Positions 21,905-24,257 of a DNA stretch of 64,000 nt are shown piece after piece. Under the pieces are notes generated by a model. It ran no database searches. It was not told the origin of the DNA and saw only the letters and a program-made list of their open reading frames with translations. The translations under genes and the position numbers were made by a program. Source of the DNA: Bradyrhizobium diazoefficiens (GTDB lineage Bacteria; Pseudomonadota; Alphaproteobacteria; Rhizobiales; Xanthobacteraceae); assembly GCF_016616885.1 (NCBI RefSeq), contig NZ_CP067102.1, positions 992,001 to 1,056,000 of the forward strand. The letters run 5' to 3'. The stretch's first letter is position 1, and each line of letters opens with the position of its first letter.

Positions 21905-22111
21905 TTACTTCGACGAAATCCGGACCCAGCCCTTGTGCGCGCGATCTTGCAGCGCATTCCAGTCGGCCTTCGCGACATCCCAGTTCACGATGGTGCGATT
22001 GGCAGTCGCGACCTCGCCATTGGCGACGGACGACGTCTGCATGGAGTCATAGACATAGACACCGCAGCCGAGCAGCAGCGCGCCTAAAATCATTCCGAAA
22101 AAAGTCTGCAT
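21905..22111 (-). CDS. Small single-span membrane protein, 68 aa
   Basis: The ATG at 22111 is preceded by GGAGG 5 bp upstream. Residues 3-20 form one membrane segment (F-F-G-M-I-L-G-A-L-L-L-G). The remaining 48 residues include an N-R-T-I-V-N-W-D-V segment and a C-terminal basic W-V-R-I-S-S-K, likely on the periplasmic side. I know of no function. An EcfG-type promoter match begins 25 bp upstream, so it may be part of the general stress response. Confidence 0.7.
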   Translation of the reverse strand: MQTFFGMILGALLLGCGVYVYDSMQTSSVANGEVATANRTIVNWDVAKADWNALQDRAHKGWVRISSK

Positions 22112-22193: not shown

Positions 22194-23264
22194 TCACCCT
22201 CCATTCAGCCATTGCAGCAGCTCCGCGTTGATCTCGCGCGGATAGGTGTGGCTGAGATCGTCGATCTCGCGGTAGGTGACATCGGCGCCCGCGGCGGCAA
22301 GTGCCGCTTGCGTCTGCCGCGCGGTCTGCACCGGAAACATCCAGTCGAGCTTGCCGTGGGTGATGAAGATCGGCAGGCCCTGCAGACGCGTGGCGTCGGC
22401 CATCTCCGCCATCAGCGGATGGAAGGTCGCCGACACCGGTGCGAGATGAGTGAAGGGCGAGGCGCCATCGAGGCCACTGACGTAGCAGAAGGTGCCGCCA
22501 TCGCTCATGCCGGTCAGCAGCATGCGTGAGGCGTCAATCGTCCAGCGGCGGCACACGGTTTCGAGCATGCGCATCAGGTTGGGCGTGTCGGTGTCATCGC
22601 CCATCAGCGCCCAGGTCTGTCCGGTCGCGGTCGGCGCCACCAGGATCGCGCCAAGGCTGCGGGAATCGCGCAGCCAGCTCCACAGAAAGCCGCGTCCGTT
22701 GCCGCTGCCGCCATGCAGCGCCATCACCAGAGGCCAGGTGCGATCGGGTGTGTAGTACTCGGGCACATAAACCGAGAAGCCGCCGCGGCTGCCGGGCTCG
22801 TTGTGATCGTGGAAGATGCCGGTGTGCTCACTTGCGCCGATCTCCAACCGTGATAGCAGCTCTGCATTCTCGCGATTGGCGGTGTTGAGGAAGAAGTTGC
22901 TGACCGGCGGAAATTGCAGCGACAGCGGATAAAGCGCCTCCTGCGCGCGCGGCACATGGCGAAGCGCACGGAACACCGCGACGAGATCGCCATTGCCGCG
23001 CTCGACGTCGCGGATGCCGGCAAAGGCGGCGAGCGTCTCATTGCAGGCAAGATCGAGCCGCTCACGCAATCCGGCGAACTGCTCCGGCCATGCGCCGATC
23101 GCTGCATGTGCCGACTGTAGCGCTTCGTCCGGCGCGCCGATTGCATTCATGACCGAGCCGAAGGCCGGCGGATGCAAATGCCGTCCGAAATATCCAAGCG
23201 CTTCCAGCGCGTTGAGCAACGGCGGCAGCATGGCCACGATGTCGTCGACGACGGCCTCGGTCAT
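22194..23264 (-). CDS. Alpha/beta hydrolase, esterase/PHB-depolymerase-like
   Basis: A 356-residue protein. The first 165 residues are helical and unassigned. The rest is an alpha/beta hydrolase with L-H-G-G-S-G-N-G at 183-190, nucleophile Ser254 in G-M-S-D-G-G, Asp307 in H-G-K-L-D-W-M-F and His339 in L-S-H-T-Y-P. The triad is complete, so it should be an active carboxylesterase, with similarity to LpqC/PHB-depolymerase-type and phospholipase-type enzymes. No signal peptide is visible. It starts 22 bp after the HtrA-like gene and is surely its operon partner. Substrate unknown. Confidence 0.85.
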   Translation of the reverse strand: MTEAVVDDIVAMLPPLLNALEALGYFGRHLHPPAFGSVMNAIGAPDEALQSAHAAIGAWPEQFAGLRERLDLACNETLAAFAGIRDVERGNGDLVAVFRALRHVPRAQEALYPLSLQFPPVSNFFLNTANRENAELLSRLEIGASEHTGIFHDHNEPGSRGGFSVYVPEYYTPDRTWPLVMALHGGSGNGRGFLWSWLRDSRSLGAILVAPTATGQTWALMGDDTDTPNLMRMLETVCRRWTIDASRMLLTGMSDGGTFCYVSGLDGASPFTHLAPVSATFHPLMAEMADATRLQGLPIFITHGKLDWMFPVQTARQTQAALAAAGADVTYREIDDLSHTYPREINAELLQWLNGG

Positions 23265-23285
23265 TGCTGCTTCCTCTATGTGGAA

Positions 23286-24257
23286 TTAGTGCAGCTGCGG
23301 CGCCTTCAACAGCTTGAAGCGGTCGGTCGATGTGACCGTGACGTCGAAGGTGACGCCTTCATGATGCACGGTGAGCGGTACGTCGACGCCGGCAGCGCCG
23401 AGCCCCCACATCTTCTTGTAGAACGCCGTCTGGCTCGTGACCTCGTCGCCATCCACGGCAAGAATGACGTCGCCGGTCTTGAGCTCCGCGCGCGCGGCGG
23501 GACCGTTGGCAGAGATCCCGATCACCACCAAGCGGTCGTCGATCTCGGTCGAATACAGCCCGAGCCACGGCCGCGCCGGCTTGTTGACGCGGCCGAACTT
23601 GCGGAGGTCGTCGAGGATCGGCTTCAGTAGATCGATCGGCACGATCATGTTGACATGCTCGTCCTTATCGTCGCGTTCACGCTTGAGCTGGAGCGAGCCG
23701 ATGCCGATCAATTCGCCGCGCGCGTTGATCAGTCCGGTGCCGCCCCAGTTCGGGTGGGCGGGATAGGTGAACAAGGCCTCGTCGAGCAGATACTCCCAAT
23801 AACCGGCGAATTCCTGCTTTGCGACGATCTGGCTCGCGACCGATCGCGTGCGCCCCCCGGCGCCACCGACCACGACGCGGTCGCCGAGCCGGGTGTCCGC
23901 CGACGAGCCGAGCGGCAGCGGCGCGATGTCGAGCCGGCCGAGCGCCTGCACCAGGCCGAAGCCGGTGACGGTATCGAAGCCGAGCACATGCCCCTCCACC
24001 ACCCGCCCGTCGCCGAGGTGAAGCCAGACAGATTCCGCTTCGGTAATGAGATAGCCGATGGTGAGCACCAGCCCGTCATCGATGACGACGCCGTTGCCGG
24101 CACGCTCGGTGCCGAGCGTTTCGGCACTGGAGGCGTCCGGCGGGATGATGGCGTGCAGGCCGACGACGGAGGCGAGCGCGCGTTCGAGATCGAAGCCGTA
24201 ATCGCTCGCACGCGGCTGATTGGCCGGCGGCACTCTCCATTCGGTCAAGGCGGGCAT
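23286..24257 (-). CDS. HtrA/DegP-like protein with PDZ domain and no catalytic triad
   Basis: A 323-residue protein that reads along its whole length like an HtrA protease: G-N-G-V-V-I-D-D-G at 54-62, a P-L-G-S-S strand near 115, and a PDZ domain at about 225-315 (W-L-G-L-Y-S then D-V-I-L-A-V-D-G-D-E-V). All three catalytic positions differ. The usual N-H-V-V His is Tyr69, the Asp of D-x-x-T-D is Gly99, and the Ser of G-N-S-G-G is Gly172. There is no signal peptide. It is probably a cytoplasmic peptide-binding scaffold. The ATG at 24257 follows CCAGGAGA. Confidence 0.8.
   Translation of the reverse strand: MPALTEWRVPPANQPRASDYGFDLERALASVVGLHAIIPPDASSAETLGTERAGNGVVIDDGLVLTIGYLITEAESVWLHLGDGRVVEGHVLGFDTVTGFGLVQALGRLDIAPLPLGSSADTRLGDRVVVGGAGGRTRSVASQIVAKQEFAGYWEYLLDEALFTYPAHPNWGGTGLINARGELIGIGSLQLKRERDDKDEHVNMIVPIDLLKPILDDLRKFGRVNKPARPWLGLYSTEIDDRLVVIGISANGPAARAELKTGDVILAVDGDEVTSQTAFYKKMWGLGAAGVDVPLTVHHEGVTFDVTVTSTDRFKLLKAPQLH

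Follow-up and report, generated by a model that had tools for sequence, protein, structure and literature searches.

HtrA proteases of the S1C family, among them DegP, DegS, DegQ and HhoA, carry a trypsin-like domain followed by a PDZ domain. The protein studied here, P0001, shares this order of domains. It differs from these proteases in that the His, Asp and Ser of the triad and the oxyanion Gly are all replaced and in that no signal peptide is visible, and it scores far under the NCBIfam cut-offs for HtrA proteins (best TIGR02038, 91.9 bits against 422.95).

HtrA relatives that have been put to other uses are known from bacteria. MamO of magnetotactic bacteria is described as an HtrA-type pseudoprotease with new functions. 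Its triad positions are occupied by His116, Asp149 and Thr225, two surface His residues bind metal, and a TauE-like transporter domain is present (PMC4794232). MamO and P0001 appear alike as bacterial HtrA relatives repurposed as non-proteases, but P0001 lacks all three triad residues and only Trypsin_2 and PDZ were matched in it (Pfam). MamO was not among the best 50 rows of either of our structural lists, an absence that proves nothing. A 2008 survey of prokaryotes covered 91 genomes including that of B. japonicum, and reported 42 of 966 serine protease homologues as catalytically inactive and 2 of 247 trypsin-like proteins as inactive (PMC2605481); these inactive homologues are of the same general class as the P0001 family. 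Bacterial pseudo-orthocaspases have Tyr instead of the catalytic His and Ser instead of the Cys (PMC6426788). Their catalytic residues are replaced, as in P0001, but they are caspase homologues and belong to another protease family. Among the matches listed in a search of open PMC papers, no title or beginning of an abstract dealt with the P0001 family itself.

The gene pair and the catalytic positions of P0001

The window, that is the whole stretch of 64,000 nucleotides that was analysed, is part of a single 8.09-Mb contig. The earlier note had described an HtrA-like protein with a replaced triad, encoded next to an intact hydrolase. Both genes were found on the minus strand where that note had put them (Table 1), with the P0002 gene downstream of the P0001 gene; the close spacing also held, except that the gap measures 21 bases and not 22. 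The named protein matches of the pair are from Bradyrhizobium. An AGGAG lies just 5′ of the P0001 start codon, the ATG at 24257, and a hydrophobic leader is absent from the short in-frame extension upstream of it. Just downstream of P0002, on the same strand, we observed a 68-aa open reading frame with a hydrophobic N-terminus, which may belong to the unit as its third gene.

Table 1. Coordinates of the features discussed in the text (window positions unless a contig is given).
Feature	Position	Strand	Evidence or remark
P0001, predicted HtrA-fold pseudoprotease, 323 aa, Trypsin_2 + PDZ	23286..24257	-	Pfam, AlphaFold2, hhalign, hmmsearch, MAFFT
Tyr69 codon, catalytic His position	24051..24053	-	Y in 174/174 of the family, H in 6/6 active HtrAs of the genome
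Gly99 codon, catalytic Asp position	23961..23963	-	G in 174/174 of the family, D in 6/6 active HtrAs of the genome
W154-E155-Y156, invariant motif before the Ser site	23790..23798	-	174/174 family members
Trp171-Gly172 codons, Gly172 at the catalytic Ser position	23742..23747	-	hhalign, hmmsearch, MAFFT
Conserved C-terminal tail LLKAPQLH and stop codon of P0001	23286..23312	-	
21-base gap between the P0001 and P0002 genes	23265..23285	-	
P0002, alpha/beta hydrolase, 356 aa, helical N-terminal region, triad S254/D307/H339	22194..23264	-	Pfam
P0002 residues 1-117	22914-23264	-	predicted all-helical, ahead of the alpha/beta domain
68-aa open reading frame	21905-22111	-	
Form B paralogues			L080, L114-L124, L126-L133, L144-L146
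L129, form B pseudoprotease in another genome	G330:C1:315956-316834		38% identity
L008, second degenerate HtrA of the P0001 genome	G000:C1:7080215-7081033		Trypsin_2 + PDZ, outside the window

The HtrA architecture with a PDZ domain that had been proposed for P0001 was borne out: Pfam matched Trypsin_2 (60.9 bits, cut-off 27.6) followed by PDZ_2 (49.4 bits, cut-off 27), and the AlphaFold2 monomer model (pLDDT 93.3) and the structure matches agree with this. The listed structure and profile matches, for the structural lists the best 50 each, comprise HtrA/Deg proteases only.

Residues 69, 99 and 172 are Tyr, Gly and Gly, as the earlier note had it. Aligned by hhalign with six active HtrA proteins of the same genome, they stand opposite the His, Asp and Ser of the triad. 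A profile hmmsearch against HtrA proteins of the PDB (two alignments shown) and MAFFT gave the same placement. Single-sequence phmmer introduced a gap in two of the three alignments shown, which displaces the Ser site to the adjacent Trp171. This placement is contradicted by the profile alignments and MAFFT, and we rejected it; with either choice the residue is not Ser. The Gly two residues before the catalytic Ser is the oxyanion-hole Gly. At that position P0001 has Asn170 (MAFFT); Gly is found there in all six active HtrA proteins of the genome as against three of the 174 family members. Thus, the His-Asp-Ser triad of the S1C HtrA proteases is not present in P0001. Neither a signal peptide nor a membrane anchor is visible in its sequence, and the form of the family to which it belongs has no leader, in accordance with the earlier claim on this point. 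The status of P0001 as a pseudoprotease is, at the level of sequence, well supported.

P0002 matched Abhydrolase_2 (31.1 bits, cut-off 23), and its triad is intact as claimed, with Ser, Asp and His at residues 254, 307 and 339 and a GxSxG motif. S254 was found in 76 of 76 sequences, and D307 and H339 are kept in 74 of these, with gaps in the remaining two; all three are invariant in 21 aligned hydrolase proteins. The uncorrected pN/pS of P0002 was 0.13–0.43 in seven comparisons. An assignment as PHB/PHA depolymerase was not reached in NCBIfam (NF050058, 56.5 bits against a cut-off of 150). The model of P0002 is poor (pLDDT 50.8) and fairly confident only in the helical N-terminal region, where Pfam gave no match to residues 1–117; Foldseek with this model returned no significant match (best E 0.065). 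In one genome of the same genus (L082, G176) the hydrolase matches in two pieces in different frames that overlap at residue 291, and this gene looks frameshifted or misassembled.

Conservation, distribution and two forms of the family

The 211 loci collected yielded 174 distinct sequences, which together with P0001 make 175. Form A accounts for 153 of these and form B for 21, and the remaining one (L147) is an active HtrA. In the alignment of the 174 family members (MAFFT), Tyr69, Gly99, W154-E155-Y156 and G173 are invariant, and Glu73 likewise. Residue 171 is aromatic (W, F or Y) in 172 members and His in two; form A has W171 throughout (153/153) and form B in 14 of 21. Position 172 is more variable. 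In form A (n = 153) it is Gly in 147, Ser in 3, Ala in 2 and Thr in 1, while Ser is seen in 11 of the 21 form B proteins, without the His or the Asp, so that a residual or changed chemistry is possible in the 11 form B and three form A members with Ser at the nucleophile position. H168 was found in 151 of 153 form A and 12 of 21 form B sequences. The uncorrected pN/pS of P0001 was 0.11–0.24 in eight comparisons.

As the same replacements run throughout the family, we discarded chance loss or a sequencing error as their cause. By these alignments the replacement is a family-wide state and not a local mutation of the P0001 gene, and the replaced site seems to be a fixed and specific one, not one in decay. 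Its invariance suggests some specific activity or role. The proposal of a cytoplasmic pseudoprotease thus agrees with the Tyr and Gly that every member has where an active HtrA has His and Asp, the lack of a visible leader and the purifying selection; what such a protein does in the cell we can only infer.

The searches covered samples of genomes, with the phylum as the widest level reached systematically. The pseudoprotease was found in 86 of 119 genomes drawn from the taxonomic family, in 44 of 249 from the order (E ≤ 1e-35) and in 73 of 289 from the class. The phylum draw gave matches in 29 of 249 genomes, two of them outside the class; of these two, G799 (42%) proved to be a family member and G693 an active HtrA. 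These matches place the family mainly in the class of the window. Named carriers include Bradyrhizobium, Rhodopseudomonas, Nitrobacter, Pseudolabrys, Methylobacterium and Stella. In a tree of 57 hand-picked rows the 49 family rows were split from eight other HtrA rows with a support of 100/100.

Two further proteins were noted on the way. L129, a form B pseudoprotease, is retained in a genome of only 1.2 Mb that is rated 100% complete. L008, a second degenerate HtrA in the genome of P0001, has lost the His and Ser sites and retained the Asp, as judged by eye. No signal peptide was seen in it if an inner ATG is the start, and a longer upstream frame exists. It falls on a long branch among the other HtrA proteins, outside the P0001 family.

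The sequences suggest that the family occurs in two forms, a leaderless form A that includes P0001 and a mostly signal-peptide-like form B, which is nested among A on the tree with weak support (86/67). A hydrophobicity scan exceeded its threshold in one of 151 form A sequences as against 15 of the 22 classed as B by identity; the scan was crude, as it included in-frame sequence 5′ of the true start and overran the leader in a few B rows. Most of these 15 look signal-peptide-bearing by eye. The scan divided the forms at 47.5% identity, whereas the residue and tail counts used a list made by hand from the tree, and L125 switches between the two; L125 and L144 were counted as B in the scan, and neither has a clear leader.

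Both forms have the PDZ domain, in which the W-L-G binding-loop pattern is kept, and most members have a conserved C-terminus. With the tails read up to the true stop, P-x-L/M-H/Q forms the end of 135 of the 151 in form A (H in 119, Q in 16). In form B, 17 of 21 tails close with S or T and then F, L or Y. A contig or locus end truncated one further sequence. This leaves 20 of 172 tails outside the patterns (16/151 A and 4/21 B).

Linkage to the hydrolase

The earlier note had placed the two genes in one operon. In the order draw the hydrolase was found in 10 of 249 genomes (E ≤ 1e-30), and in all ten the pseudoprotease gene adjoins it, nine times as in the window and once reversed; 34 of the 44 genomes with the pseudoprotease had no hydrolase at this cut-off. 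In the taxonomic family the hydrolase was present in 31 of 119 genomes, 27 of them with the pseudoprotease and four without, and 59 of 86 pseudoprotease genomes lacked it at the cut-off. This co-occurrence has a Fisher p of 0.037, uncorrected for phylogeny. The two genes are adjacent in 11 of the 27 genomes and apart in 16. Six of the adjacent cases are from the genus of the window and five, all in reverse order, from another genus (g3). In one further pair of genomes about 5 kb separates the genes.

We also inspected 80 named loci, which are the best-scoring of 583 confirmed ones and lean to Bradyrhizobium. The pseudoprotease gene is followed by the hydrolase gene within 300 bp in 40 of these 80 and the order is reversed in one; in two the hydrolase is near and non-adjacent, and in 37, some of them short stretches, there is none. 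Wider gaps, of 221–289 bp or 2.3 kb, occur in some loci of Bradyrhizobium. A DsbA-like gene on the opposite strand lies near the pseudoprotease in 39 of the 80 loci as against 43 for the hydrolase, and in 37 of the 43 loci that have the hydrolase. As this gene is kept almost as often as the hydrolase, the linkage is partly plain genus synteny.

For each gene of the pair a tree was made from hand-picked rows (42 and 40). The reverse arrangement forms one clade on both trees (100/100 and 100/99), apart from the forward one. Unlinked lineages separate the forward and reverse groups on both, by branches of moderate support, and the trees disagree over which unlinked lineage is closest to the forward group. 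This points either to repeated joining of the genes or to an old cluster that was later split and rearranged. Adjacency in opposite orders in two separate groups is a hint that the two proteins are functionally connected in the linked lineages. Thus, the pairing occurs in Bradyrhizobium and, reversed, in one other clade, but does not extend to most order genomes that have the pseudoprotease. The hydrolase was accordingly rejected as a general partner of the family, whose main role should be older and wider than this link.

No conserved neighbourhood was found outside Bradyrhizobium in 70 A-labelled and 20 B-labelled loci, nor in a set of 40 loci. Family members aside, any one neighbour was shared by at most 10 of the A loci, and those that recur are, as an informal impression, apparently in related genera; around the B loci no neighbour within 3.5 kb reached a count of four. 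The genes were called here with a rough script, by which some were missed; L080 and L125 stood in the set of the opposite label. Hence, genomics gives no general partner.

What the pseudoprotease may do

On the sequence evidence we lean towards reading P0001 as a so far uncharacterised pseudoprotease with a PDZ domain, which would bind peptides or proteins but not cut them, and to which the hydrolase became linked secondarily. It would be a member of an old, widely kept HtrA-fold pseudoprotease family of the class and may act in the cytosol as an adaptor or chaperone-like protein. Its PDZ domain would bind peptides or C-termini without cleavage, and the remodelled, aromatic-rich pseudo-active region (Tyr69, Trp154-Glu155-Tyr156, Trp171) may offer a second binding surface. 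The conserved C-terminal tail could compete for PDZ domains or link them. The hydrolase would have joined in Bradyrhizobium and one other clade, and might there act as a client or be expressed under a shared condition.

The earlier note had instead cast the pseudoprotease as a scaffold or targeting factor dedicated to the adjoining hydrolase. The same-strand arrangement 21 bp apart, its recurrence among the best 80 loci, the opposite orders in two groups that both gene trees keep separate and the pseudoprotease in 27 of 31 hydrolase genomes of the taxonomic family all speak for it. We nevertheless consider it unlikely, since most pseudoprotease genomes of the order and the taxonomic family lack the hydrolase at the cut-off, four hydrolase genomes lack the pseudoprotease, the genes are apart in 16 of 27 genomes with both (in one by about 5 kb), the spacing widens in some Bradyrhizobium loci and the DsbA-like gene is retained nearly as often. 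The hydrolase C-termini are moreover variable across the 21 aligned proteins, so that no conserved PDZ ligand is seen there, and a C-terminus of the hydrolase as the ligand was rejected. The proposal has partial support at best and fails as a general role; the adjacency in two groups speaks against dismissing the link. It is similarly improbable that the family works by PDZ-tail self-assembly, in which the tail would dock in the PDZ domain of a neighbouring subunit to give chains or an autoinhibited trimer that client C-termini open as a signal. A PDZ protein with a conserved C-terminus of its own, as in most members of both forms, suggests such self-docking, and by their titles DegS structures contain C-terminal peptides such as YQF; C-terminal peptides in DegS structures are bound by PDZ. 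Yet the last residues of the P0001 tail have low confidence in the monomer model, the off-pattern tails would not fit, and folding or turnover are alternative roles for the tail.

A new active site with different chemistry, built from Tyr69, Glu73, Trp154-Glu155-Tyr156 and in form A also His168, appears decidedly less probable. All of these residues except His168 are invariant and His168 is nearly so in form A, but it is kept in little more than half of form B, and the listed structure and profile matches give no hint of another chemistry. That P0001 is the remnant of a lost protease, drifting neutrally towards disappearance, would account for the loss of every catalytic position; we regard it as extremely improbable, as it is largely refuted by the low pN/pS, the wide retention and the invariant replacements. 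More ambitiously, though only as a tentative suggestion, the family could be an unrecognised two-form pseudo-HtrA system of Alphaproteobacteria, cytosolic and mostly periplasmic, with a dead invariant trypsin site, a working PDZ domain and a built-in C-terminal PDZ ligand, which would serve as a self-gated sensor or adaptor for C-termini and in Bradyrhizobium have the hydrolase as a dedicated client.

Taken together, we conclude that the finding is better framed as a broad, uncharacterised pseudo-HtrA family than as a scaffold for a hydrolase, and that its main interest lies in the invariant dead site and the two forms with and without a leader. Family members are often annotated at the source as “S1C family serine protease” or “serine protease”. 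Should these proteins have no cleaving activity, many of the annotations are wrong, and soil and symbiotic bacteria would possess a pseudoprotease family that is widely retained.
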